Positions 15,588 through 28,563 of a stretch of DNA of 64,000 nucleotides are shown piece by piece. The stretch spans positions 1,488,001-1,552,000 of the forward strand of contig NZ_PHQX01000001.1 in NCBI RefSeq assembly GCF_002803515.1. Reading direction: 5' to 3'. The position numbers were made by a program, and so were the translations under genes. The notes below the pieces were generated by a model. That model saw nothing but the letters and a program-made list of their open reading frames with translations. It ran no database searches and was not told the DNA's origin. This DNA comes from Stenotrophomonas lactitubi (GTDB taxonomy: Bacteria > Pseudomonadota > Gammaproteobacteria > Xanthomonadales > Xanthomonadaceae). Position 1 is the first letter of the stretch. Every line of letters begins with the position of its first letter.

Positions 15588-16589
15588 TCAGCAGCCCACC
15601 AGCCGGTCGGCGCTGATGCCACTGCGATGCTGGTTGCGGTATTCGATGGGGCTGGCGTCGACCATGCCGCGGAAGTGCCGACGGAACGATTCCTGCGAAC
15701 CAAAGCCCGCCTGTTCGGCCACCCATTGCAGTGGGCGGTCGGTGGTTTCCAGCAGTTCACGTGCGTAGGCCACGCGCTCGCGGATGAGCCAGTCGATGGG
15801 CGACAGGCCGGTGGCTTCGAGGAACTGGCGCTGCAGGGTGCGCTGGCTCAGCGCGGCCTGTTCGGCGAGGCTGCCCAGCGAATGCGGTTCGCGCAGATTG
15901 CGCCGCATCCATTCCATCAGTTTCGCCAGCCGCGTGGGCTCGCCCAGCGGGATCGCGCGGCTGACGCGCTGGCTGCGTTCGGCATCGCGCCACGGCGCCA
16001 GCACCAGCCGCTCCGCTACGAGGTTGGCCACGCGTGCACCGTAATCCTTGCGCACCATGTGCAGCATCATGTCCATGCCGGTGGCCGACCCGGCCGAGGT
16101 GATGATGCTGCCGGCGTCCACATACAGCACGTCGTCGCGTACGTGGATGCGCGGGAACTCGCGGGCCAGTGTTTCGGTGAGCCGCCAGTGGGTGGTGGCC
16201 TGGCGGCCATCGAGCAGGCCGGCCCAGGCGAGCACGAACGCGCCTGAGCAGATGGAGGTGATGCGGGCGCCGCGCGCATGGGCGCGGGTGAGGGCATCGA
16301 GCAGGGCCTGCGGTGGGCGCTCGCTGGGTTCGCGCCAGCCGGGAATGACGATGATGTCGGCGTCGTCGACCGCACTCAGATCGTAGGGCAGCTGTACCTG
16401 TGCGCTGCCGAGCATGCGCAGTGCACCGGGCTCGCCAGCGCAGAGCTGGGTGCGGTACCAGGCCACGCCCAGTTCGGGGCGGATGGGTGCGAACAGGCCG
16501 ACCGCGCAGCCGAATTCGAACAGGCCCTGGCCGTGGCAGGCCACGATGGCGACGGTGGGCGCGTTCGGTTCGGCAGGCAGGGTGGGCAT
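15588..16589 (-). CDS. GlxA/FtrA-like AraC regulator with DJ-1/PfpI domain
   Basis: A 333-residue regulator with two parts. Residues about 10-185 form a DJ-1/PfpI-like sensor (VAIVACHGQGLFEFGCAVGL, the elbow ITSICSGAFVLAWAGLL). The C-terminus is an AraC DNA-binding domain (SLGSLAEQAALSQRTLQRQF, then VAEQAGFGSQESFRRHF). GlxA-type proteins respond to small nitrogenous or oxidised metabolites; the effector and targets here are not evident. It is separated from the TonB receptor cluster by a SMAG pair, so control of that cluster is possible but unsupported. Confidence 0.9.
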   Translation of the reverse strand: MPTLPAEPNAPTVAIVACHGQGLFEFGCAVGLFAPIRPELGVAWYRTQLCAGEPGALRMLGSAQVQLPYDLSAVDDADIIVIPGWREPSERPPQALLDALTRAHARGARITSICSGAFVLAWAGLLDGRQATTHWRLTETLAREFPRIHVRDDVLYVDAGSIITSAGSATGMDMMLHMVRKDYGARVANLVAERLVLAPWRDAERSQRVSRAIPLGEPTRLAKLMEWMRRNLREPHSLGSLAEQAALSQRTLQRQFLEATGLSPIDWLIRERVAYARELLETTDRPLQWVAEQAGFGSQESFRRHFRGMVDASPIEYRNQHRSGISADRLVGC

Positions 16590-16682
16590 GGCTTGATGCT
16601 ACCGACGCAGGCACGTGCCGCTGAGTGGCGCGCGGGCATGAGGTGATGCCCGCGGGGTATATGGAGCAGTCGCTCCCTTCTT

Positions 16683-16774
16683 GTAGAGCCGAGCCCACGC
16701 TCGGCTCAATACCGGAAGGGGGGATGCATTCTGACGCGGTCGCGAAGAGCAGCCGAGCGTGGGCTCGGCTCTAC
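16683..16774. repeat. Inverted pair of SMAG-type repeats ('GAGCC' class)
   Basis: GTAGAGCCGAGCC...GGCT (16683-16706) and its reverse complement ending in CTAC (16751-16774) form a pair with a 44-bp spacer. The same class recurs at 19522 and 49199-49287. Confidence 0.9.
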
Positions 16775-16835
16775 AGACAGTAGTGCACCGGCGCGGCCGC
16801 CTAACCTCATTACCAGCGGTCATGTGGCTGGCGCG

Positions 16836-16850
16836 ATGTGACGGTCACAT
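16836..16850. promoter_or_regulatory. Palindrome upstream of the TonB receptor gene
   Basis: ATGTGAC-G-GTCACAT is a perfect 7-bp dyad around one central base, ending 78 bp before the receptor ATG. It is the only clear palindrome near the start of the ten-gene cluster and is therefore its best operator candidate. The regulator is not identified. The 3-bp spacing between TGTGA and TCACA does not fit CRP. Confidence 0.5.
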
Positions 16851-16928
16851 GACGCGATATCCGCTGTTGCGCGTTGGGCGCGGGCCCTTGAATGGAGGTG
16901 TGTCTCCGGCCCACCCCCACGAGCCCCC

Positions 16929-19505
16929 ATGCCTGCTGCCCATATTCCTGCGCTGTCCACGCTCTCCCTTCTGATTGCGGCCGCCCTGGCCGCTGCCCCG
17001 GCGTATGCGGCTGATGCCGATGCGCCGTCGGCGACCACTGCCACTTCTGCGAACCTTGCCGCGTCCACGCTGGATGCGGTGGTGGTGACCGGCTCGCGTA
17101 CCAGTACGCGCACGGTGAAGAACAGCTCGACACCGATCGACGTGATTTCCGCCGAGGACCTGGCGGCTACCGGCCAGGCCAACCTGCTCGAAGCCCTGCA
17201 GCGCAGCCTGCCGTCGCTGAGCCAGATTGGCGGTTACCAGAGCGACCAGGAAAGCCTGATCCGCGGCTACCAACTGCGCAACCTGTCGCCGGGTTACACG
17301 CTGGTGCTGGTGAACGGCAAGCGCCGCAACGCCAGTGCGTACGTCAGTGGCGCCAACGGCGGTGGCTATCCGGGCCACGCCTGGGCCGATCTGGCGCTGA
17401 TTCCGGTATCGGCCATCGACCACGTAGAGGTGCTGCGTGATGGCGCATCGGCCATCTACGGTTCGGACGCGATCACCGGGGTGATCAACGTGATCCTGAA
17501 ATCGCAGGCGCACGGTGGCGATGTGTCGGTGGAGAGCGGGCAGAGCACCGATGGCGACGGCAGCCGCACCAGCGTGCGCGCCAACATCGGTCTGCCATGG
17601 GGCGAGGATGGCTTCATCAACCTGTCCGGTGAGAGCACGCGCCAGCACCATGCGATACGCACGCGTCGCTACATCGATGGCTACCTGAGCTATCCGGCGG
17701 TGGATGGCAACGGCAACCTGGTGGCGCTGCGGCCGAACAACCGGCTGCCGGCCGGGGCGTCGCCGAACCCGGCCGAGGCCGGACGCGATGCGGAGGCCAA
17801 CATCATCCTCAGCTCGCCGTCGTATGCGTTGAAGGCCTTCGCGGTGAACGTGGGCCATGGGCTGGGTGAGAACGCGCAGTTCTACGCCAATGCGACGGCC
17901 AGTGACCGTACCGCGCAGGCGATCCAGAACTTCCGGCTGCCGGCGACGATCTTCACCACCTACAGGGCGCCGGGCGTGCTGAGCGTGTTTCCCGACGGCT
18001 TCCTGCCGGTGCTGGAAACCAAGGAGAAGCAGTACACCGGCACGGCCGGGGTGAAGGGCCAGGTTGCGGGCTGGGACTACGACGTCAGCCTCACCAGCAA
18101 CCGCAATACGGTGCGCACCTACACCCGCAATTCGGTGAACTATTCGCTGCCATATCCCGGCTCGCCCACCGACTTCTACGACGGCAAGCTGGACTACCAG
18201 CAGGGCATCGCCAACCTCGACCTGCGTCGTGGCTTCGAGGTGGCCGCCTTCGCCTCGCCGCTGGAAGTAAGTGCGGGTGCCGAGTACCAGCACGAGCAGT
18301 ACGAGCGCGGGGCAGGGCAGTGGGAGTCGTACACCGGCTTCGGTGCGGCCGCCTTCGTGGGCTATTCCACCGCCGATGCGGTGAAGGCCACCCGCAACAG
18401 CAAGGCGGTGTACGCCGGTGCGGCGACCAACATCACCTCGCGCTGGTACCTGGATGCGGCCGCGCGCTGGGAAGACCATTCCGACTTCGGCACGGTGTCG
18501 ACCGGTCGGTTGACCACGCGCTTCGACTTCACCGATGCGCTGGGTGTGCGTGCCACGGTCAGCAATGGCTTCCATGCGCCGAGCTTGGGGGCGCAGTTCT
18601 ACCAGGCCACTGGCAGCTGCCCGTGCGGCACCACGCTGGTGGCGCAGGTCGCTTCGCCGGCAGCGGTGGCGCTGGGCGCTACGCCGCTGAAGCCGGAGAA
18701 GGCCACCAACTACAGCCTCGGCGTGACCTGGGACCCGAGCCCGGCCTTCCATCTGGCGGTGGATGCGTACCAGATCGACATTCGCGGCCAACTCGGCCAG
18801 TCCAGCCAGATCGGCTACAACGCGCAGGACCCGGCGCGGGTGACCGACAACAGCGGCACCGTGCTGACCGCCGCGCAGAAAAATACGATTGATGCGCTGC
18901 TGGGTACGGCCGGCATCAGCATCCTGCCCGGTGATGCGTTCTACGCCAGCTATTTCACCAACGTGGGCGACACCCGCACGCGCGGTGTGGAGCTGACCCT
19001 GGAAGCGAACCAGGAAACACAGTGGGGCAAGCTGCGCTGGACCTACGCGGCCAACGTGGGCCGCACCACCATCCAGAAGGTGAGCGCGATTCCGCAGGCG
19101 CTGCAGGGGCTGCCGAACATCAACCTGCTGACCAAGTCGAGTGAGTACGCGCTGCGCTTCCGCACGCCGTCGTACACGCAGGTGGCGGGGCTGGGCTGGC
19201 AGAACGGGCGCTGGCGCTCGAACGTGGACTTCACCTACTACGGCCCGATCAAGCGCCTGAACAACGGCGTGGAGTACAAGCAGCCGCCGGTGCTGGTGAC
19301 CAACCTGTCCGGTGGGGTGGAGCTGGGCGCGGGCTGGAGCGCGGCGCTGGGCATCAACAACCTGTTCGACAAGCGCACCCGCAAGGTGCCCGCGTACGCA
19401 CGCAGCGCCACCGATGTGGCCAGCATCGAGACCACCTGGGACAGCGGTGATGTGCTGAGCAACGTCGGGACGTTCTGGTACGGGCGCGTCAACTACCGGT
19501 TCTGA
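16929..19505 (+). CDS. TonB-dependent outer membrane receptor
   Basis: An 858-residue TonB-dependent transporter with signal peptide (cleavage after AYA, about residue 27) and a TonB-box-like segment LDAVVVTGSR (about 48-57). A plug domain follows (IRGYQLRNLSPGYTLVLVNG, VEVLRDGASAIYGSDAITGV), then a 22-strand barrel ending in an aromatic C-terminus (VNYRF). It moves a substrate across the outer membrane with energy from TonB-ExbBD. It leads a co-directional cluster of flavin monooxygenases, an M20 hydrolase, a GNAT and an ABC importer, so its cargo is probably the organosulfur compound processed by those genes. That link is inference from context. Confidence 0.92.
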   Translation: MPAAHIPALSTLSLLIAAALAAAPAYAADADAPSATTATSANLAASTLDAVVVTGSRTSTRTVKNSSTPIDVISAEDLAATGQANLLEALQRSLPSLSQIGGYQSDQESLIRGYQLRNLSPGYTLVLVNGKRRNASAYVSGANGGGYPGHAWADLALIPVSAIDHVEVLRDGASAIYGSDAITGVINVILKSQAHGGDVSVESGQSTDGDGSRTSVRANIGLPWGEDGFINLSGESTRQHHAIRTRRYIDGYLSYPAVDGNGNLVALRPNNRLPAGASPNPAEAGRDAEANIILSSPSYALKAFAVNVGHGLGENAQFYANATASDRTAQAIQNFRLPATIFTTYRAPGVLSVFPDGFLPVLETKEKQYTGTAGVKGQVAGWDYDVSLTSNRNTVRTYTRNSVNYSLPYPGSPTDFYDGKLDYQQGIANLDLRRGFEVAAFASPLEVSAGAEYQHEQYERGAGQWESYTGFGAAAFVGYSTADAVKATRNSKAVYAGAATNITSRWYLDAAARWEDHSDFGTVSTGRLTTRFDFTDALGVRATVSNGFHAPSLGAQFYQATGSCPCGTTLVAQVASPAAVALGATPLKPEKATNYSLGVTWDPSPAFHLAVDAYQIDIRGQLGQSSQIGYNAQDPARVTDNSGTVLTAAQKNTIDALLGTAGISILPGDAFYASYFTNVGDTRTRGVELTLEANQETQWGKLRWTYAANVGRTTIQKVSAIPQALQGLPNINLLTKSSEYALRFRTPSYTQVAGLGWQNGRWRSNVDFTYYGPIKRLNNGVEYKQPPVLVTNLSGGVELGAGWSAALGINNLFDKRTRKVPAYARSATDVASIETTWDSGDVLSNVGTFWYGRVNYRF

Positions 19506-19521
19506 GGTTCATGCCACACGC

Positions 19522-19544
19522 AGCCGAGCGTGGCTCGGCGCTAC
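19522..19544. repeat. Single SMAG-type repeat
   Basis: AGCCGAGCGTGGCTCGGCGCTAC, of the same class as 16683-16774, lies in the 52-bp gap between the TonB receptor and the FMN reductase gene. It could lower or separate transcription between the receptor and the enzymes. Confidence 0.85.
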
Positions 19545-19557
19545 ATGGGAGCGTTTC

Positions 19558-20139
19558 ATGTCATCTGCATTGAATGTGGTTGCGTTGATTGGTTCGCCGA
19601 CGGCATCGGCCAACTCGCGCACGTTGCTGCTGGTGCGGCATCTGCTGGAAGAGCTGCGCGAGCGGGTCAACATCAGCGTGGAGCTGGTCGAGCTGGCGCC
19701 GATCGCGCGCTCGCTGGGGCAGGCGCTGCAGCGCAGTGAAGTGGAGCCGCAGGTGGAGCGCGCGCTGGCCACGATTGAATCGGCGCAGCTGCTGGTAGCG
19801 GCCACGCCGGTGTATCGCGGGTCCTATCCGGGCCTGTTCAAGCACCTGATCGACTTCATCGAACTGGACGCGCTGGTGGATACGCCGGTGCTGCTGGCCG
19901 CCACCGGTGGCAGCGAGCGCCACGCGCTGGTGATCGACCATCAGCTGCGGCCGCTTTTCAGCTTCCTGCAAGCGCATACGTTGCCGATCGGGGTGTATGC
20001 CACGCCGGCCGACTTCGACGGCGACTGCATCAACAGCGCTGCACTGCAGGCGCGCATCCAGCTGGCGGCCGAGCGTGCAGCGGGACACGTGGCGCCTCGG
20101 GCGGCGGCGCTGCCGGCGCCGCTGCGCAGGATCGCCTAG
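19558..20139 (+). CDS. NADPH-dependent FMN reductase (SsuE/MsuE type)
   Basis: A 193-residue flavodoxin-fold reductase that should supply FMNH2 to the luciferase-like monooxygenases encoded next to it. Seen: the FMN phosphate loop IGSPTASANSRT (11-22) and the family motif ATPVYRGSYPGLFKHLIDFI (about 82-101), then LLAATGGSERHAL. SsuE/MsuE proteins serve two-component sulfonate or organosulfur monooxygenases. GGGAG lies 7 nt before the ATG. It is the second gene of the cluster, followed closely by three monooxygenase genes. Confidence 0.93.
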   Translation: MSSALNVVALIGSPTASANSRTLLLVRHLLEELRERVNISVELVELAPIARSLGQALQRSEVEPQVERALATIESAQLLVAATPVYRGSYPGLFKHLIDFIELDALVDTPVLLAATGGSERHALVIDHQLRPLFSFLQAHTLPIGVYATPADFDGDCINSAALQARIQLAAERAAGHVAPRAAALPAPLRRIA

Positions 20140-20148
20140 GACGTGGCG

Positions 20149-21168
20149 GTGCAGCTGCGGCACTTGGCGTTCCTCACGCCCGGAAGCTATCTACCGGAAC
20201 AACCCCGCGCGGGCCTGGACGCGACGCTGGCGTTGATCGCGTTTGCCGAACAGCTGGGCTATGACGGCGCGTGGGTGCGCCACCGCCACCTGGAGCCGGG
20301 CATCAGCTCGGCAGCGGTGTTCCTGGCGGCGGCCAGCCAGCACACCACCCGCATCGAGCTGGGCAGTGCGGTGATCCAGCTGGGCTATGAAACACCGTTC
20401 CGTCTGGCCGAGGATCTGTCGTTGCTGGACGCGCTGGCCGGTGGCCGGCTGCAGGTGGGCGTCAGTACCGGCGCGCCGCCACACGGGGAATTGGTTGGGC
20501 CACTGCTGTACGACAGCGACCCTGCGCACATCGACTTTTCCCATGGCCGGGTGGCGCGCTTGCTGGAGGCGCTGCGTGGTGAGCCGTTGGGTGCCGCAGA
20601 TGCCGAAGTCGGCAACGCCGCCACGCGCTATCGCCCGCGACTGCAGCCGCATGCGCCGGGGCTGGTGGACCGGGTCTGGTATGGCGCTGGCTCTCTGCAG
20701 TCGGCGCGTTCGGCGGGGGAGCAGGGCCTGCATCTGCTGCTGGGCAACGTCAACCGCGCCGAGCTGAGTGATGACTTCTTCGGTGCCCAGCTGCAGCACC
20801 TGCAGGCCTATCGCGCGGCATTGCCGTTGGACAGCCCGCGCCGCGTGGCGGTGGGGCGGGTGCTGGTGCCCACCGATGGTGTGGATGCGGCCACGCGGCA
20901 GAGGATCGAGGCCTTCAGTGCGCAGCGGCATGCGCGCACCCTGGCGCCGCAAGGGCCTCGCCGCACCATGTTCGCGCCCGACGTGGTCGGCAGCACGGCG
21001 CAGATCATTGCGCGGTTGCAGAGCGATCCGCTGCTGCAGCAGGTGGACGAGCTGCGGGTTGAGCTGCCCTATGAGCTGCCCGAGCAGGACTACCGGCGCA
21101 TCCTCACCACGGTGATCGAGGACATCGCGCCGGCGCTGGGTTGGCGCGCGCCCGCGCAAGCGGCGTGA
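20149..21168 (+). CDS. Luciferase-like flavin monooxygenase (LLM), first of three
   Basis: A 339-residue TIM-barrel LLM enzyme that uses FMNH2 and O2. Landmarks are LRHLAFLTPGSYLPE, LIAFAEQLGYDGAWVRHRHL (20-50), IELGSAVIQLGYETPFRLAEDLS split over the second barrel segment, and LDALAGGRLQVGVSTG. The substrate is unknown; context points to sulfur-containing compounds. GTG 20149 is preferred because AGGA (20138-20141) lies 7 nt upstream; a GTG at 20143 is too close to it. It follows the FMN reductase directly. Confidence 0.88.
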   Translation: MQLRHLAFLTPGSYLPEQPRAGLDATLALIAFAEQLGYDGAWVRHRHLEPGISSAAVFLAAASQHTTRIELGSAVIQLGYETPFRLAEDLSLLDALAGGRLQVGVSTGAPPHGELVGPLLYDSDPAHIDFSHGRVARLLEALRGEPLGAADAEVGNAATRYRPRLQPHAPGLVDRVWYGAGSLQSARSAGEQGLHLLLGNVNRAELSDDFFGAQLQHLQAYRAALPLDSPRRVAVGRVLVPTDGVDAATRQRIEAFSAQRHARTLAPQGPRRTMFAPDVVGSTAQIIARLQSDPLLQQVDELRVELPYELPEQDYRRILTTVIEDIAPALGWRAPAQAA

Positions 21169-21334
21169 CGTTACCAGCGTCCATAACGGCCAGCAGTCTG
21201 CTTATTGCCAACCTGCATCTGCATGGCCGGATCCGACCGTGGATTGTCGAGTTCTGGCGCTGGCATGCAGCCTTCCTTCTCTAGCATCGATATCGAAGCG
21301 GCAGTGCATTGCCGGCCCCTACGAGGACGATTCC

Positions 21335-21697
21335 GTGGCTGTAGACGCAACCCACAAACCCATCCTGTTCCTGCTGGACCGCGAGTTCGAGGACGGCCAG
21401 TTGCCCGGACAACGCTTCTTCTGCCGGCACAGCCTGCTGCTGGAAGGTGCGCTGTCGAGCATCGACGGCCTCGACGCGCAACTGGATGTGCGCCGCATCG
21501 GTTTCAGCCGGCCGCGCCGCGAGGTGATCGCCGAGATCGGCGAGCAGGACCAGTCGCTGCCGAAGCTGGTGCTGCCGCAGGGTGTGGTCAATGAACACGC
21601 AAGTGGTGAGTACCAGCAGCGCCAGTACATCTCCGGTGCCGAACCGATCCTGGCGGCATTGAATGGCCTGCTCGGCATTCCCGTGGCCCATCCCTGA
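21335..21697 (+). CDS. DUF3088 protein, probable thioredoxin-like fold
   Basis: A 120-residue protein matching the DUF3088 pattern (KPILFLLDREFEDGQLPGQR, FFCRHSLLLEG, RRIGFSRPRREVIAEIGEQD, QSLPKLVLPQG). By inspection it has thioredoxin/GST-like features: a beta strand followed by a cysteine at a helix start (Cys-x-x-Ser) and a later SLP that could be the cis-proline. That fold assignment is my inference. GTG 21335 is chosen because AGGA lies 7 nt upstream; the longer frame starts in noncoding sequence. It sits between two LLM monooxygenase genes, suggesting a redox or thiol role in their pathway. Confidence 0.78.
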   Translation: MAVDATHKPILFLLDREFEDGQLPGQRFFCRHSLLLEGALSSIDGLDAQLDVRRIGFSRPRREVIAEIGEQDQSLPKLVLPQGVVNEHASGEYQQRQYISGAEPILAALNGLLGIPVAHP

Positions 21698-21711
21698 GCG
21701 AGGACGTGACC

Positions 21712-22689
21712 ATGAGCTACCTCACCAGCGTGTTGGACAAGAGCCCGGTGGCCGACGGCAGCACGCCGGAACAGGCGCTGCGCAACAGCCTTCAACTGGC
21801 GCAGCGCGCCGAGCAGCTGGGCTATCACCGTTACTGGTTTGCCGAGCACCACGCGGCGCCGACGCTGGCCAGCCCGGCACCGGAAGTGCTGGCGGCGTGG
21901 GTGCTGGCGCAGACCCGGCGCATCCGCATCGGCAGTGGCGGGGTGATGCTGCGCCACTACGCACCGTACAAGGTGGCCGAGAACTTCAACCTGCTGGCGG
22001 CACTGGCGCCGGGGCGCGTGGATCTGGGCGTGGGCAAGGCACCGGGCGGTCTGCCGGCATCGACTGCCGCATTGGCCGCCGGTCGCCCGGCATTCGCCGA
22101 TTTCGACCAGCAGCTGCGCGACCTGGAAGGATATCTGTCCGATGCGCAGGCTGATGCGCAGGCGCGGCCGATTCCACAGACGTCGCCGGAGCGCTTCCTG
22201 CTTGGCGCCAGCCCGCAGAGCGCGCGGCAGGCGGCCGAACTGGGCTGGCGCTTCGTGTATGCCGCGCATTTCGACGGTGACCCGAAGCACATCGAGGCCG
22301 CCTTCGAGGCGTATCGCACGGTGTCCGCGCACGTCCCGTTGCTGGCAACGGTGGCCTTCGCCGCGCCCACCAGCGAGGCCGCTGCGCGCCATATCGGCGC
22401 GTTGCGGGTCTACAAGCTGCACCTGGGCCCCGGACAGACGGTGAACCTGCCCAGCCCCGAGGCCGCTGCCGAGTACGCACGGCAGGTGGGTGTCAATGAT
22501 TTCCGCGTCGAAGAAACACGCCCCAGCGTGCTCTCTGGCGACGCGCAGCACGTACGCAGCGAGCTGGATGCGCTGCATCGACGCTTCGGCGTGGGTGAAT
22601 TCATCCTCGACGCGCCGGTGGCCGACCTCGACGCACGCCTGACGTCCCTTGAACTGCTGTCGCCCGCTCCCCGCGCGGCGGTGGCCTGA
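21712..22689 (+). CDS. LLM-class flavin monooxygenase, MsnO8-like
   Basis: A 325-residue luciferase-like protein resembling the MsnO8 group: [37 protein letters not shown] (about 26-48), [35 protein letters not shown]. It would need FMNH2 from the reductase at 19558. AGGA (21701-21704) is 7 nt before ATG 21712, which is chosen over the GTG at 21706. It is 14 bp after the DUF3088 gene and 16 bp before the next monooxygenase gene. Confidence 0.9.
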
Positions 22690-22705
22690 CTGCTGGAGCG
22701 ACCCC

Positions 22706-24049
22706 ATGAGCACGACCCCGCGTCCCATCCCGTTCGGCATCATGCTGCAGGGCCCCGGCAGCCACATGCATGCCTGGAAGCATCCGTCCAACGTGCCCGA
22801 TGCCAGCGTCAACCTGGGCTATTACATCGACATCGCGCGTACCGCCGAGGACAACGGCATCGCTTTCGGCTTCGTTGCTGACGGCCTGTACATCAACGAG
22901 AAGTCGATCCCGCATTTCCTCAACCGCTTCGAGCCGATCTCGCTGCTGTCCGCACTGGCGACGGCAACGAAGAAGATCGGCCTGGCCGGCACGCTTTCCA
23001 CCTCGTACAGCGATCCATTCACCGTAGCCCGCCAGTTCGCCTCGCTGGACCTGCTCAGCGGTGGCCGTGCCGGCTGGAACGTGGTGACCTCGCCGCTGGA
23101 AGGTTCGGGCCGCAACTACGGCCGCCCGCATCCGGAACACGCGCTGCGCTACCAGATTGCCGATGAGTACCTTGAGGTGGTGCAGGGCCTGTGGGATTCG
23201 TGGGATGACGATGCGTTCGTGCGCGACCGCGACAGCGGCACGTTCTTCGCACCGGAGAAGTTCCGTCGCCTCGACCACAAGGGCCGCTTCTTCCAGGTTG
23301 AAGGCCCGCTCAACATCCAGCGCTCGCCGCAGGGGCAGCCGGTGATCTTCCAGGCCGGTTCGTCCGACGATGGCATTGCGCTGGCAGGCAAGTATGCCGA
23401 TGCGGTGTTCACCCACGCGCCGTCGCTGGAGGAGACCCGTGCATTCACCCAGAAGGTGAAGAACTCGGCGATCGCCCATGGCCGCAGTGCCGGTGACGTC
23501 AAGATCTTCCCGGGCATCGGCCCGATCGTTGGCCGTACGGCGGAAGAAGCCGAAGCCAAGTACCAGGCGATTGCCGCGCTGGCCGGGCTGGACGATGCAC
23601 TGGCGTATCTCGGCCGCTTCTTCGACCACCATGATTTCAGCCAGTACGACCCGGATGCGCCGTTCCCGGAGCTGGGCGATATCGGTTCCAATTCCTTCCG
23701 CTCCACCACCGACCGCATCAAGCAGGACGCGCGTGAGCAGGGCCTGAGCCTGCGCCAGGTGGCACTGCAGGCGGTCAGCCCGCGGCCGAATTTCATCGGC
23801 ACGCCGGAGCATGTGGCCGATGAGCTGATCCGGTGGTTCGACGCCGGTGCCAGCGATGGCTTCATCCTCGGCTTCGCTGCGCAGCGCGAAGGCCTGGATG
23901 ATTTCGTGACCCTTGTGCTGCCCTTGCTGGAAGCGCGCGGCTACCACCGCAGTGAGCTCGAAGGAGAGACTCTGCGCGACCACCTGGGCCTGCCACGCAA
24001 GGCGAGCCGTTATGCGACCGACGCCGAGCCGGCGCGGAAGGTGGGATAA
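22706..24049 (+). CDS. NtaA/SnaA/DszA-type FMN-dependent monooxygenase (YxeK/YtnJ-like)
   Basis: A 447-residue LLM enzyme of the NtaA/SnaA/DszA/SoxA group: [96 protein letters not shown]. In Bacillus, relatives YtnJ and YxeK cleave the C-S bond of N-acetylated S-alkyl or S-succino cysteines. The neighbours here (M20 hydrolase, GNAT, ABC importer) match that operon, so the same reaction is the best hypothesis. The ATG at 22706 opens the conserved sequence; upstream codons belong to the previous gene. Confidence 0.92.
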
Positions 24050-24053
24050 GGCG

Positions 24054-25274
24054 ATGAGCGGAGATACCTCGGTAGCGCCGGGCCATGCCCGGCGGAATTC
24101 GCCGGCAACGGGCGTACTGCCCGAGATCGCGGCACGTGCCGACGAGGCCATCGCGATCCGCCATGACCTGCACCAGCACCCGGAACTGGCCTTCGAAGAA
24201 CACCGCACCAGTGCCCGCGTGGCGGAACTGCTGCAGCAATGGGGCTACGCGGTCAGCACCGGCATCGGTGGCACCGGCGTGGTCGGTACGCTGCAGCGCG
24301 GGCAGGGCAGTCGCCGGTTGGGCCTGCGCGCCGACATCGATGCGCTGCCGATCCATGAAGAATCCGGGTTGGCCTATGCCAGCCAGCGCGAAGGCCTGAT
24401 GCACGCCTGCGGCCACGATGGCCACACCGCCATCCTGCTCTCGGCCGCCCACTACCTGGCACACCACGGCCGATTCGATGGCACGTTGCAGCTGGTGTTC
24501 CAGCCGGCCGAGGAAACCGGGTCAGGTGCTTCGAAGATGATCGCCGATGGCCTGTTCGAGCGCTTCCCGGTCGATGCCATCTATGGCCTGCACAACTGGC
24601 CGGGCGTTCCAGTAGGGCACTTCGGCTTCGTCGACGGACCGGCGATGGCTTCGGTGGACTGGGCGCGGCTGCGGGTGATCGGCAAGGGTGGCCACGGCGC
24701 CGAGCCGCAGGGCAGCGTCGACCCGATCCTGGCCGCTGCACACATCATCACCGCGCTGCAGAGCGTGGTGTCGCGCAATGTCGATCCGCGGCAGATGGGC
24801 GTGGTCACCGTCGGTTCGATCCATGGTGGGCAGGCCGCCAACGTGATTCCCGATGTGGTCGAGCTGAAGTTGACCGTGCGTGCGTACCTGCCGGAGGTGC
24901 GCGATACCCTGCGCCGACGGGTCACCGACATTGCCGAGCAGACCGCCGCTGCGTTTGGCGCGCGTGCCGAGATCGAATTCCCGCGCGGCTTCCCCAGCGT
25001 AATCAATCATCCGGAGCAGACGGCTTACATCCGCGAGGTGGCGGTGCAGGGCTTCGGCGCCGGGCAGGTGGTGGAGGCCTTCGCACCGCGTACCGCCAGT
25101 GAGGACTTCGCCTTCCTGCTGCAGGCGCGGCCGGGCAGTTTCGTGTTCGTCGGTAACGGCGACAGCGCGCCGCTGCACAGCCCGCGCTATGTGTTCAATG
25201 ATGCGGCCATCGCCCCCGCGGCCAGTCTGTGGGCGCGTTTGGCCGAGCACTACCTGGTGGAGGACGTGGCATGA
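24054..25274 (+). CDS. M20-family amidohydrolase (hippurate hydrolase/N-deacetylase type)
   Basis: A 406-residue metal-dependent amidohydrolase. Metal-ligand motifs are HACGHDGHT (117-125) and PAEE (151-154), with GLHNWP (178-183) and RADIDALP (92-99). It is closest in type to Bacillus YtnL/YxeP, which remove the acetyl group in S-alkyl-cysteine salvage. The first 16 or so codons include a SMAG repeat (24072-24093 encodes residues 7-14), so the N-terminal tail is repeat-derived; conserved sequence begins near residue 24. It starts 4 bp after the previous gene and overlaps the GNAT gene by 4 bp. Confidence 0.92.
   Translation: MSGDTSVAPGHARRNSPATGVLPEIAARADEAIAIRHDLHQHPELAFEEHRTSARVAELLQQWGYAVSTGIGGTGVVGTLQRGQGSRRLGLRADIDALPIHEESGLAYASQREGLMHACGHDGHTAILLSAAHYLAHHGRFDGTLQLVFQPAEETGSGASKMIADGLFERFPVDAIYGLHNWPGVPVGHFGFVDGPAMASVDWARLRVIGKGGHGAEPQGSVDPILAAAHIITALQSVVSRNVDPRQMGVVTVGSIHGGQAANVIPDVVELKLTVRAYLPEVRDTLRRRVTDIAEQTAAAFGARAEIEFPRGFPSVINHPEQTAYIREVAVQGFGAGQVVEAFAPRTASEDFAFLLQARPGSFVFVGNGDSAPLHSPRYVFNDAAIAPAASLWARLAEHYLVEDVA
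24072..24093. repeat. SMAG repeat inside the M20 hydrolase coding sequence
   Basis: GTAGCGCCGGGCCATGCCCGGC, a perfect GTAG-headed element, lies 18 nt inside the open reading frame and is translated as VAPGHARR. No stop or frameshift results. A start codon downstream of the element that preserves the enzyme is not apparent, since conserved residues begin soon after. Confidence 0.92.
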
Positions 25275-25831
25275 GCGTGCGGTACGACAACGATCGCTTC
25301 CTGTACACCGCGGTGGATGACCCGCTGGCGCGGCCGTTGTTTGATGGTCTGGAACAGGAATACGACAACCGCTATGCAGACGTGCGCCGGCGCATTGGTG
25401 GCAGCGCCCGAGAAGAGCTGCAGCGCTATCCTGCGGAGGCCTTCGCGGCCCCGGTGGGTGCGTTCGTGCTGCTGCTGCGCGACGGCGTGGCAATCTCCGG
25501 CGGCGCGTTCATGCCGCATCGCGATGAGGATACCGCCGAATTCAAACGCATCTGGACGCTGCCCGGTCTGCGCCGGCAGGGCATCGCCCGCCGCGTACTG
25601 CAGGAACTGGAAGACCAGGCTGCGCGGCAGGGCTATCGACGCGTGTTCCTGACCACCGGCTTCCGCCAGCCGGAGGCGGTCGGCCTGTACCTCAGTCATG
25701 GCTACACCGCGCTGTTCGATCTGGATGCGGATCCGGAAACCATCGCGCATCTGCCGTTCGAAAAACAGCTGGTGCCGCAGCCGCAGCTGGACGTCGCGCC
25801 CGCCATCGCACTGCACGGAGCGGTGGCATGA
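25271..25831 (+). CDS. GNAT-family N-acetyltransferase (candidate S-alkyl-cysteine N-acetyltransferase)
   Basis: A 186-residue GNAT. The acetyl-CoA site is WTLPGLRRQGIARRVLQELE (around residues 98-117), and the C-terminal part GFRQPEAVGLYLSHGYTAL is typical. The order hydrolase-GNAT-ABC importer matches Bacillus ytm/yxe operons, where the GNAT (YtmI/YxeL) acetylates the amino group of the S-modified cysteine before the monooxygenase acts. Its ATG overlaps the M20 stop (ATGA) and its own stop overlaps the ABC gene start, indicating strict co-translation. Confidence 0.88.
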   Translation: MSVRYDNDRFLYTAVDDPLARPLFDGLEQEYDNRYADVRRRIGGSAREELQRYPAEAFAAPVGAFVLLLRDGVAISGGAFMPHRDEDTAEFKRIWTLPGLRRQGIARRVLQELEDQAARQGYRRVFLTTGFRQPEAVGLYLSHGYTALFDLDADPETIAHLPFEKQLVPQPQLDVAPAIALHGAVA

Positions 25832-27570
25832 GCACACCGTCCACCGCTATCGAGGGCATTCCCCGCCAGCCGGCCACGGCGCTGAAGATCGTGCCGGCGC
25901 GGCACCCGCTGCAGGTGATCGGTACGGTGCTGGCACTGGCGCTGATCCTGATCGGGCTGCAGTCGGTGCTGGGCAATCCGCGCTGGGGCTGGGGCACGTT
26001 CGCCGAATGGTTCTTCGCCCGCCCGATACTGGCAGGGCTGGGGCGCACGTTGCTGCTGACCGCGCTCGGTACCGGCCTCGGCTTCGCGCTGGGCACACTG
26101 TTGGCCTTGGCCCGCGTCTCCGGCTCACCGCTGCTGTCGGCGGTGTCGTGGGGCTACGTGTGGCTGTTCCGTTCGATTCCGCTGCTGGTGCTGTTGCTGC
26201 TGCTGAACAACCTGGGCTACCTGTACAGCACCATCGAACTGGGCGTGCCGTTCACCGGCATCAGCCTGTTCTCGTACCCGACCACGCAGTTGATCGGCGT
26301 GTTCACTGCGGCGGTACTCGGCCTCACCTTGAACCAGGCGGCGTTCTCGGCGGAGGTGATCCGTGGCGGCATCCTGTCGGTCGACCACGGCCAGTACGAA
26401 GCGGCCGCAGCGTTGGGCCTGCCGCGCGGCCGACAGGTGCGCCGCATCATCCTGCCGCAGGCGATGCGTTCGATCCTGCCGGCGGCGTTCAACGATGTGA
26501 TCGGGCTGGCCAAGAGCACCTCGGTGGTCTATGTGCTGGCGCTGCCGGAGCTGTTCTACACCGTGCAGGTGATCTACCGCCGCAACCTGGAGGTGGTGCC
26601 GCTGCTGATGGTGGCCACGGTCTGGTACCTGGTGATCCTGACGGTGCTGTCGCTGCTGCAGCGGCGGGTGGAGCAGCGTTTCGCGCGTGGCCAGCTGCAG
26701 CATGAGCGCAACGTGTCGCGGGTACCGTCGACGCCACCGCGCCCGGTGGTGCCGGCCATTGCACGCGTACCCAGCCGAGCGGCTTTTGCCGTGCCGATCG
26801 AGGCGGGCACGGGCGCCGCCGTTTCATTGCAGGGTGTGGGCAAGGCCTTCGGCGAGCAGACGGTGCTGGATGACGTGCACCTGGAACTGAAGGCGGGCAG
26901 CGTGACCGTGCTGATCGGTCCGTCCGGTGCCGGCAAGTCCACGCTGCTGCGGCTGATCAATCATCTTGAACGCGCTGACAGTGGCTTCGTAACGGTGGGC
27001 GGCCAGCTGATCGGCTACCGCCGAGACGGCGACACCTTGTACGAGCTGCCGGAAGGCGAGATCCGCCGTCGCCGCGCCGAAGTCGGCATGGTGTTCCAGG
27101 GCTTCAACCTGTTCCCGCACATGACCGCGCTGGAGAACATCATCGAAGCGCCCATCGCCGTGCGCGGCATTTCGCGTGCACAGGCCGAGCAGCAGGCGCG
27201 CACCCTGCTGGAGCGGGTGGGGTTGGCCGACAAGGCCGATGCCTTCCCGCGCCAGCTGTCCGGTGGCCAGCAGCAGCGCGTGGCCATTGCCCGCGCGCTG
27301 GCGCTGCAGCCGAAGGTGCTGCTGTTCGACGAGCCGACCTCCGCGCTGGACCCGGAGCTGGTGTCGGAGGTGCTGAGCGTGATCGAGGAGCTGGCCAGTT
27401 CCGGCACCACGTTGGTGATCGTCACCCACGAACTGGGCTTCGCCCGGCGTGTGGCCGACCACGTGGTGATGATGGACCAGGGTCGGGTGATCGAGCAGGG
27501 CACGCCGGACGCGCTGTTTGAAAACCCGCGCCAGCAACGCACCGCCGATTTCCTGGCCAAGACCCTGTAA
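25828..27570 (+). CDS. Fused ABC transporter permease-ATPase, polar amino acid type
   Basis: A 580-residue fusion. Residues 25-280 form a HisM-type permease (about five or six membrane segments, with EAA loop EAAAALGLPRGRQVRRIILP from 191). A linker of about 45 residues rich in Pro/Arg follows. Residues 330-580 form the ATPase: Walker A GPSGAGKST (364-372), signature LSGGQQQR (477-484), Walker B LLFDEP (498-503), and THE for the switch histidine. Normally two proteins, these functions are joined, so each transporter would contain two fused chains. With the binding protein at 27589 it should import an amino-acid-like substrate, by context an S-modified cysteine. Confidence 0.93.
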   Translation: MSTPSTAIEGIPRQPATALKIVPARHPLQVIGTVLALALILIGLQSVLGNPRWGWGTFAEWFFARPILAGLGRTLLLTALGTGLGFALGTLLALARVSGSPLLSAVSWGYVWLFRSIPLLVLLLLLNNLGYLYSTIELGVPFTGISLFSYPTTQLIGVFTAAVLGLTLNQAAFSAEVIRGGILSVDHGQYEAAAALGLPRGRQVRRIILPQAMRSILPAAFNDVIGLAKSTSVVYVLALPELFYTVQVIYRRNLEVVPLLMVATVWYLVILTVLSLLQRRVEQRFARGQLQHERNVSRVPSTPPRPVVPAIARVPSRAAFAVPIEAGTGAAVSLQGVGKAFGEQTVLDDVHLELKAGSVTVLIGPSGAGKSTLLRLINHLERADSGFVTVGGQLIGYRRDGDTLYELPEGEIRRRRAEVGMVFQGFNLFPHMTALENIIEAPIAVRGISRAQAEQQARTLLERVGLADKADAFPRQLSGGQQQRVAIARALALQPKVLLFDEPTSALDPELVSEVLSVIEELASSGTTLVIVTHELGFARRVADHVVMMDQGRVIEQGTPDALFENPRQQRTADFLAKTL

Positions 27571-27588
27571 CCCCTTTCGAGAAACCCC

Positions 27589-28563
27589 ATGAGCCCAGCA
27601 TCGCAGCGACGTCCCGCACGCAGCACCCTGTTGATCGTCGGTGTGCTGGTCATCGGCATCGCCGGCATCGTCTACTCACGCGTACGCCAGGGCCCCGATG
27701 GCGTGCCTGTTGCGGCGACATCGCTGGCAGCCAGCAACGCGGAGATACTGAAGGGCACGCCCGATCCGAAGGCGCAGGCACTGATTCCGGCCGGCTACCG
27801 TTTCGTCACCCCGGGTGCCTTCACCATCGCCACCCATCCCGGCCAGCTGCCGTTGGCCGACTACGGTGCCGACAGCAAGGAAGTGGTGGGCGTGGAGCCC
27901 GATATCGCACGATTGATCGCAGACGGCCTCGGCCTGAAGCTGGTGGTGGTGCCGGTGGCCTGGGCCGACTGGCCGCTGGGGCTGGAATCGGGCAAGTACG
28001 ATGCGGTGCTGTCGAACGTGACGGTCACCGAAGAGCGCAAGAAGAAGTTCGATTTCTCCAGCTACCGTTTCGACCTGCTGGGCATCTACACCCGCACCGA
28101 TGGACCGATCCAGAAGATCGCCACGCCCGCCGACGTGGCCGGGCTGAAAGTGGTTGTGGGCGCCAGCACCAACCAGGACCAGATCCTGCGCCAATGGGAC
28201 AAGCAGAACATCGCCGCGGGCCTGAAACCGGTGGAGTACCAGTACTTCGATGACGCAGTGATCGGGCGGCTGGCGGTGATCACCGGTCGCGCGGATGTAT
28301 CGTTCGAGCCGAATGCCACCGGTGCCTATTCGGCACGCGATGGCAAGGTGCGCCGGGTCGGCCTGTTCCCGGGCGGCTGGCCGGATGCGGCGGCGATCTC
28401 GGTGACCACCCGCAAGGGCAGCGGTCTGGCCGATGCAGTGACCCAGGCCCTGAACACGCAGATCAGCAGCGGTACCTACGCGAAGGTGTTGGCACGCTGG
28501 AACGTGGCCGAAGAAGCGGTGCCGCAGTCGCAGACCAATCCGCCGGGGCTGCCGGGGTTCTAG
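27589..28563 (+). CDS. Amino-acid ABC transporter substrate-binding protein, membrane-anchored
   Basis: A 324-residue family 3 type solute-binding protein: FTIATHPGQLPLADYGADSK, VGVEPDIARLIADGLGLKLV, WPLGLESGKYDAVLSNVTVT, then TPADVAGLKVVVGASTNQDQ. The N-terminus (STLLIVGVLVIGIAGIVYSR) is a hydrophobic helix without a clear cleavage site or lipobox. The protein is therefore probably tethered to the inner membrane with its domain in the periplasm. It follows the fused ABC gene by 18 bp and ends the cluster; a run of REP repeats follows. Confidence 0.92.
   Translation: MSPASQRRPARSTLLIVGVLVIGIAGIVYSRVRQGPDGVPVAATSLAASNAEILKGTPDPKAQALIPAGYRFVTPGAFTIATHPGQLPLADYGADSKEVVGVEPDIARLIADGLGLKLVVVPVAWADWPLGLESGKYDAVLSNVTVTEERKKKFDFSSYRFDLLGIYTRTDGPIQKIATPADVAGLKVVVGASTNQDQILRQWDKQNIAAGLKPVEYQYFDDAVIGRLAVITGRADVSFEPNATGAYSARDGKVRRVGLFPGGWPDAAAISVTTRKGSGLADAVTQALNTQISSGTYAKVLARWNVAEEAVPQSQTNPPGLPGF

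Follow-up and report, generated by a model that had tools for sequence, protein, structure and literature searches.

In the parts of the source available to us, the published CmoO/CmoJ route comprises N-acetylation, formation of a sulfoxide by CmoO, CmoJ cleavage yielding an aldehyde plus a sulfenic acid, reduction, and deacetylation (PMC10863075); the same text names no enzyme for the reduction of the sulfenic acid, and the words glutaredoxin, thioredoxin, and CmoI are absent from the paper's main text. The ytm operon of Bacillus inaquosorum (locus L070, retrieved by a CmoJ search, with yt- and Tcy- names assigned by gene order and PMC6323116 cited alongside) encodes a GNAT acetyltransferase, two binding proteins, two permeases, an ATPase, YtmO, a 93-residue glutaredoxin with a CSYC motif, YtnJ, RibR, YtnL, and YtnM. 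Related yxe-type loci with another lyase are described for Enterococcus and Dickeya in the available portion of a paper whose main text does not contain the words Stenotrophomonas and TonB (PMC9706529). Here, we analyze a 64,000-nucleotide stretch (the window) of Stenotrophomonas lactitubi, lying within a 4.2-Mb contig of a 4.87-Mb genome, in which ten genes at positions 16929–28563 likely form a Gram-negative operon of the cmo type for the salvage of cysteine from S-alkyl-cysteines. The cluster is real and conserved, and it appears to be a variant of the known CmoO/CmoJ salvage unit, with a TonB-dependent receptor, a regulator, and a thioredoxin-like protein added.

A preliminary description of the window, made from its letters alone, had listed ten co-directional genes over this span, and the open reading frames (ORFs) together with domain and family scans of the window bear this out: ten plus-strand ORFs carry the expected domains, with the permease and ATPase forming a single 580-residue ORF, not two genes. 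The start/stop overlaps noted earlier in the hydrolase-GNAT-transporter part are likewise present, 4 bp each at the M20/GNAT and GNAT/transporter junctions (the start codons are our choice; the stretches used for family scans extended as much as 66 bases further 5′). With the exception of the luciferase-like monooxygenase (LLM) gene LLM1, the genes, nine in all, are found together in each of the 48 genus relatives compared (L050 and 47 fetched stretches; some gene matches are partial, e.g., the TonB receptor is 73% covered in L180), and omega is 0.02–0.24 in all completed comparisons against three relatives, with LLM1 compared in one only. The cluster is therefore not a chance assembly.

LLM3 (22706–24049, plus strand) is an NtaA/DmoA-family monooxygenase that scores 515 bits against TIGR03860. 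Among solved structures its best match is 3sdo (625 bits), for which "nitrilotriacetate monooxygenase" is the depositors' name, followed by YtnJ (1tvl and 6ask, 520 bits), with other NtaA/DmoA-type structures at 285 bits or less. A search of the B. inaquosorum genome with LLM3 returns YtnJ first (56% identity, 529 bits) and then a protein at 46% and 423 bits, taken as YxeK from its gene neighbors in locus L261. In a tree of 50 rows, LLM3 falls into a 38-row clade that contains YtnJ, supported by a Shimodaira-Hasegawa-like approximate likelihood ratio test (SH-aLRT) value of 99, with YxeK outside. This and the LLM2 tree below are quick trees with SH-aLRT values and no bootstrap; their rows include 10 of 80 Bacillota loci (every third, L070 to L097) plus L072, L074, L099, and L121, and proteins were kept if they scored more than 400 bits (NtaA-type) or more than 60 bits (MsnO8/LLM1) on profiles built from the same loci. 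In both, the window protein joins other Xanthomonadaceae, the next rows being from Comamonas and Burkholderia. By sequence comparison, LLM3 is thus an orthologue of CmoJ (YtnJ) and not of YxeK/ScmK. The preliminary description had made much depend on where the NtaA-type enzyme falls phylogenetically, and it groups with YtnJ/CmoJ.

CmoJ-clade monooxygenases also occur in other settings. In L061 (9245–13851) the neighbors of one are an NMT1-type binding protein, a cysteine-dioxygenase-like protein, and a protein carrying four rhodanese matches, and in L062 (8380–11759) one adjoins an NMT1-type binding protein; both are 55–56% identical to YtnJ, and neither locus is a cmo cluster. This setting is possibly another thioether route. 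Two Paenibacillus loci, L076 and L097, carry three and two CmoJ-clade genes per stretch, respectively.

LLM2 (21712–22689, plus strand), an MsnO8-family monooxygenase, scores 334 bits against TIGR03558 (cut-off 167) and is 40.5% identical to YtmO over its full length. Of the five MsnO8 proteins of B. inaquosorum, YtmO of the ytm operon is its best match (222 bits; the next reaches 194), and its tree places it in a 31-row clade with YtmO and other CmoJ-locus genes (SH-aLRT 85), the four other paralogues falling outside. LLM2 is probably a CmoO (YtmO)-type sulfoxidase and the second core enzyme of the pathway. The preliminary description had treated "extra" LLM enzymes as widening the pathway, which does not fit LLM2. 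LLM1 (20143–21168, plus strand), whose nearest model is TIGR04027 at 121.4 bits (cut-off 412.9), is present in 6 of the 48 genus relatives, and in L051, L053, L054, L209, and L210 it closes the far end of the gene row; it is an optional, dispensable gene and the sole extra LLM. Its best solved relative, 8k74, is named alkanal monooxygenase, a weak match (72 bits) whose name says little. A role for LLM1 as oxidase of the aldehyde released by CmoJ, appealing because of that name, is at most a possibility given the weakness of the match.

The placement of LLM3 bears directly on a different sulfur substrate. If the locus were of the scm (yxe) kind, it would break down S-(2-succino)cysteine, with the NtaA-type enzyme hydroxylating N-acetyl-2-succinocysteine as ScmK/YxeK does. 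The same classes of protein are involved (GNAT, NtaA-type LLM, M20, amino-acid importer), and the best solved relative of the M20 protein is YxeP/ScmP (1ysj, 256 bits). However, LLM3 is closer to YtnJ than to YxeK and lies outside the YxeK branch, and a CmoO-type LLM2 has no part in the published scm route. Since the LLM3 tree and the CmoO relative LLM2 both disfavor S-succino-cysteine, we regard this substrate as quite unlikely, and of the two Bacillus models proposed in the preliminary description, ytm and yxe, we retain ytm/cmo.

The remaining enzymes and the importer are consistent with cysteine salvage of the cmo kind. The M20 amidohydrolase (24054–25274, plus strand) is 41% identical to YtnL over 372 residues and resembles, in sequence, a YtnL-type N-acetylcysteine deacetylase. 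By eye, a HACGHD motif, presumably the metal site, is found in both. For YtnL, ScmP, and YhaA, N-acetylcysteine deacetylation has been demonstrated, according to the text available to us (PMC12757645). The GNAT (25271–25831, plus strand; PF00583) can be aligned with its counterparts in 14 other Gram-negative clusters. The flavin mononucleotide (FMN) reductase (19558–20139, plus strand) is above the cut-off of the MsuE equivalog model TIGR03566 (225.1 versus 212.5 bits), occurs in all 48 genus relatives, and would supply reduced FMN (FMNH2). The fused ATP-binding cassette (ABC) permease-ATPase (25828–27570, plus strand; PF00528 + PF00005) is 45% identical to TcyN in its ATPase half, with 30% for TcyL/TcyM; the importer, for which TcyJ is matched at 27%, is thus of the TcyJKLMN amino-acid type. 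The family 3 solute-binding protein that follows it (27589–28563, plus strand; PF00497) has a cystine-binding model as the best of its NCBIfam matches, at 64.6 bits against a cut-off of 312.

Because GNAT and M20 are broad families, the same genes might instead salvage some other amine or N-acyl conjugate unrelated to cysteine; the M20 protein would then act as a general aminoacylase, the GNAT would be a detoxifying acetylase, and the LLMs would oxidize another thioether or amine. The M20 protein also matches the DoeB2 and CpsA models, below cut-off, and L231, from another family, combines a TonB homologue and an importer of the same type with no CmoO or CmoJ match in the stretch. Against this, CmoO and CmoJ types accompany M20 and GNAT in 12 of the 14 phylum-sample genomes with an LLM3 homologue of at least 54%, as in the Bacillus operon, and we consider a non-cysteine substrate unlikely.

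The acetylate-oxidize-dealkylate-deacetylate chemistry put forward in the preliminary description remains the best reading of the sequences, and the cmo-type pathway would run as follows. Passage through the outer membrane, of the substrate itself or of a larger conjugate, would depend on the TonB receptor, and the binding protein and fused ABC importer would complete uptake into the cell. The GNAT would N-acetylate the S-alkyl-cysteine, LLM2 would form the sulfoxide, and LLM3 would cleave the C–S bond to give an aldehyde and N-acetylcysteine sulfenic acid, with the MsuE-type reductase feeding FMNH2 to both monooxygenases. The DUF3088 protein, through its single conserved cysteine, would reduce the sulfenic acid, probably with glutathione, and the M20 protein would deacetylate N-acetylcysteine to cysteine. 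The divergent regulator probably responds to the substrate.

The DUF3088 gene (about 21335–21697, plus strand) sits beside the CmoO-CmoJ genes, where Bacillus places the glutaredoxin CmoI. Profile comparison has put DUF3088 in the thioredoxin-like clan, nearest Grx2/GST_N, as given in the accessible part of PMC3091736. All 50 fold matches listed carry names of thioredoxin-fold families, led by theta and omega glutathione S-transferases (GSTs), dehydroascorbate reductase, and CLIC1, with identities of at most 24% among those 50. The predicted active site is C30-x-x-S33, with proline 76 ahead of strand 3; helix 1 starts at residue 31, and C30 is invariant in an alignment of 31 rows (the query and 30 of 53 proteins, with the frame-broken-looking P0041 excluded and P0017, P0051, and P0053 added). 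In the predicted model, DUF3088 shares with the GST omega/dehydroascorbate reductase/glutaredoxin fold a cysteine where helix 1 begins and a proline preceding strand 3; unlike these proteins, it would stand alone as a 120-residue domain that lacks the helical domain of GSTs, and its motif is CxxS, not a CxxC dithiol. A separate comparison of 17 DUF3088 rows has CxxC in 10, CxxS in 4, and CxxG in 3. The protein, which had earlier been thought to widen or finish the pathway, is best read from its modeled fold as a thiol reductase of the thioredoxin/GST-like kind that occupies the position of CmoI.

Of 18 DUF3088 genes, 6 have an NtaA-type LLM no more than 5 kb away, against 0.059 expected by chance, a low estimate because at most five LLM candidates were scored per genome (the Poisson values used larger guessed means, 0.16 and 0.26), and four of the six neighbors belong to the same orthologous cluster. 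In L063 (5390–12512) and L064 (8912–19296), DUF3088 adjoins other NtaA-type monooxygenases, 39–46% identical to LLM3 or YtnJ, and L064 also has a TonB homologue; these two loci suggest a wider DUF3088-monooxygenase partnership. Genome G249 combines DUF3088, a TonB homologue, and an LLM3 homologue of 44% identity within a span of 10 kb.

Within the genus, LLM3 is present at 91% identity or more in 49 of 91 Stenotrophomonas genomes (G343 has only distant homologues), and CmoJ, FtrA, and DUF3088 share an identical set of 49 genomes. As a control, a flanking gene of 1039 residues has close orthologues (at least 79%) in 62 genomes, 18 of them cluster-free, and is missing in 5 genomes with the cluster. 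The co-occurrence is thus strong evidence for linkage and weaker evidence for independent gains, since the 49 genomes may be one clade. A search of 247 Xanthomonadaceae genomes found LLM3 in four genomes of other genera at 82–84% and in one at 48%. The three of these four stretches that can be read, G387, G538, and G578 (G387 is counted as other genus; its NCBI name is Stenotrophomonas), all carry genes for the divergent regulator and the TonB receptor as well as DUF3088; LLM1 is found only in G387, and G538 lacks an FMN reductase match. The remaining stretch, L250, consists of a 4-kb contig bearing DUF3088-LLM2-LLM3.

A synteny search, proposed earlier as a check, shows that the enzyme-importer block recurs in Xanthomonadaceae and beyond: its synteny extends to further genera of the Xanthomonadaceae, to Comamonas, Agrobacterium, and a Mesorhizobium, and to six genomes of a gammaproteobacterial family (f9, perhaps Enterobacteriaceae or a relative). 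Among 299 Pseudomonadota genomes, 14 have an LLM3 homologue of at least 54%, and in 12 of these LLM2, GNAT, ABC parts, and M20 surround it (G286 and G130 have other neighbors). Gene order differs in the six f9 clusters, where the M20 protein adjoining LLM3 is 43–48% identical to YtnL versus 38–41% to the window M20, so that the Gram-negative cmo group is itself mixed. Plasmid-borne examples come from Comamonas odontotermitis, Agrobacterium vitis, and Burkholderia cenocepacia, and 282 plasmid records have a match at an E value of 1e-100 or better. On a conjugative B. cenocepacia plasmid (L208, 6330–12206), GNAT, binding protein, LLM2, LLM3, and fused ABC genes are present, with no M20 match in the stretch. 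Within the stretches of 80 Bacillota CmoJ loci (L070–L149), CmoO is matched in 70 and M20 in 57, so the composition of the Bacillota clusters varies too.

The TonB-dependent outer-membrane receptor (16929–19505, plus strand; PF07715 + PF00593) is present in all 48 genus relatives and in 49 of the 91 Stenotrophomonas genomes, those with CmoJ; in addition, G347 has a 53% homologue. In L231 (3423–10737), a TonB homologue is followed by permease, ATPase, and binding-protein matches 52–63% identical to the window importer (59–63% for the ABC parts), which supports the pairing of receptor and importer; two further ORFs there were read by eye as an amine oxidase and a RidA protein, and L230 has similar ORFs. 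The receptor type is not exclusive to the cluster, in that the other TonB homologue stretches, L223–L229 and L232–L234, have no match to the cluster LLM genes.

TonB receptors classically import chelates, and the NCBIfam matches of this one, all far below cut-off, are often siderophore, heme, or vitamin B12 receptors. Together with the family name NtaA, this raises the question of whether the locus serves the use of a siderophore or of a metal chelate resembling nitrilotriacetate or ethylenediaminetetraacetate (EDTA), with the receptor importing the chelate and the NtaA-type enzyme degrading it. The EDTA monooxygenase EmoA (5dqp), however, scores only 209 bits against LLM3, compared with 520 for YtnJ, the importer is of the amino-acid type, and we know of no place for N-acetylation and deacetylation in chelate breakdown; chelate use is very improbable. 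A receptor serving the cmo-type pathway would carry an S-alkyl-cysteine or a larger conjugate. No TonB receptor for cysteine conjugates was found in the literature searched, which covered few subscription papers. We tentatively propose, as a possibility somewhat short of even, that DUF3088 is a glutathione-linked N-acetylcysteine sulfenate reductase with one essential cysteine and that the receptor is a dedicated importer of cysteine conjugates (e.g., plant S-alkyl-cysteine sulfoxides or larger xenobiotic conjugates).

The span given in the preliminary description holds for the ten genes and leaves out the divergently transcribed regulator (15588–16589, minus strand), which combines a DJ-1/PfpI domain (PF01965) with an AraC-type helix-turn-helix domain (PF12833) and exceeds the cut-off of the FtrA model NF006902 by 0.3 bit (425.3 versus 425). 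It is present in 45 of the 48 genus relatives, the other three stretches being ended by contig ends; this FtrA-type regulator belongs to the unit. CdhR and GbdR, AraC regulators of the GATase-1-like type that control the catabolism of carnitine and glycine betaine, provide a precedent: in the available text, the CdhR gene is divergent from its operon and CdhR binds direct repeats (PMC5806209). In the intergenic region (16590–16928), an alignment of relatives shows a partly conserved stretch at 16817–16860, a candidate control site. A perfect dyad (16819–16826/16846–16853) was rejected as operator: the full pattern was matched in 25 of 47 regions, and of these only the window carries the second arm. 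Two facing GTAGAGCCGAGC-type palindromic repeats, which we take to resemble the Stenotrophomonas repetitive extragenic palindromic (REP) family, lie at 16680–16780 between regulator and receptor.

Several observations weigh against a cmo-type salvage operon. The margin by which LLM2 prefers YtmO is moderate, and its clade has a support of 85 with no bootstrap. The GNAT has no credible BLAST match to YtmI among the B. inaquosorum ytm proteins, and its profile matches to GNATs of Bacillota loci are mostly weak (YtmI, the SnaA counterpart, E = 2.3e-4), the only strong one being from Alicyclobacillus (L144, E = 4.5e-27); weak profile matches are all that link it to YtmI or YxeL. The second active-site residue of DUF3088 varies among cluster loci (n = 55: CxxS in 53, CxxC in L250, CxxG in L251). 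The family is present in 6 of 19 Gram-negative loci searched (a set that includes the non-cmo loci L061 and L062) and in none of the 80 Bacillota CmoJ loci, which means that the reduction step does not always need DUF3088; moreover, in the phylum sample, 11 of the 18 stretches with DUF3088 contain no NtaA-type LLM, ruling the family out as a general cmo-cluster marker. A TonB receptor is unusual for a molecule that could pass through porins, and the genus-wide co-occurrence may reflect one gain in one clade.

If correct, the cmo-type assignment would extend the Bacillus cysteine-salvage pathway to a Gram-negative family as a complete, regulated import-to-cysteine unit, and such bacteria could obtain sulfur from cysteine conjugates of plant and xenobiotic detoxification. 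It would also give a DUF family a candidate role, propose an enzyme for sulfenic-acid reduction, and put a name to the class of small molecules carried by a TonB receptor that is otherwise anonymous.

Compared with known systems, the locus shares with the B. subtilis scm (yxe) operon acetylation, oxidative C–S cleavage, and deacetylation, as far as the accessible text describes them (PMC12757645), and differs from it in that scm has a single monooxygenase, ScmK, of another branch and no CmoO in the operon as described. With the Bacillus ytm/cmo operon, as read in B. inaquosorum, it shares enzymes of the CmoJ, CmoO, and YtnL types, together with a GNAT, an ABC importer for amino acids, and a small protein of thioredoxin fold. 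Unlike that operon, it has a TonB receptor, an MsuE-type FMN reductase, a fused permease-ATPase, an FtrA-type regulator, and the optional LLM1; it has no RibR match, its GNAT is apparently of another subfamily, and DUF3088 takes the place of the glutaredoxin CmoI/YtnI. YtnI itself has no match in the 19 Gram-negative loci searched and no credible match among the window proteins compared, and it is not a strict defining feature, being present in only 13 of the 80 Bacillota CmoJ loci. Cmo-type clusters are also known from Comamonas (L209), Agrobacterium (L210), and Mesorhizobium (L053), with the genes LLM2-LLM3-M20-GNAT-fused ABC-binding protein arranged as in the window at 49–72% identity, with DUF3088 present also in L053 and L054; unlike the window, the clusters of L209, L210, and L053 have no TonB receptor match in their stretches, carry two binding proteins, and place LLM1 at the far end.

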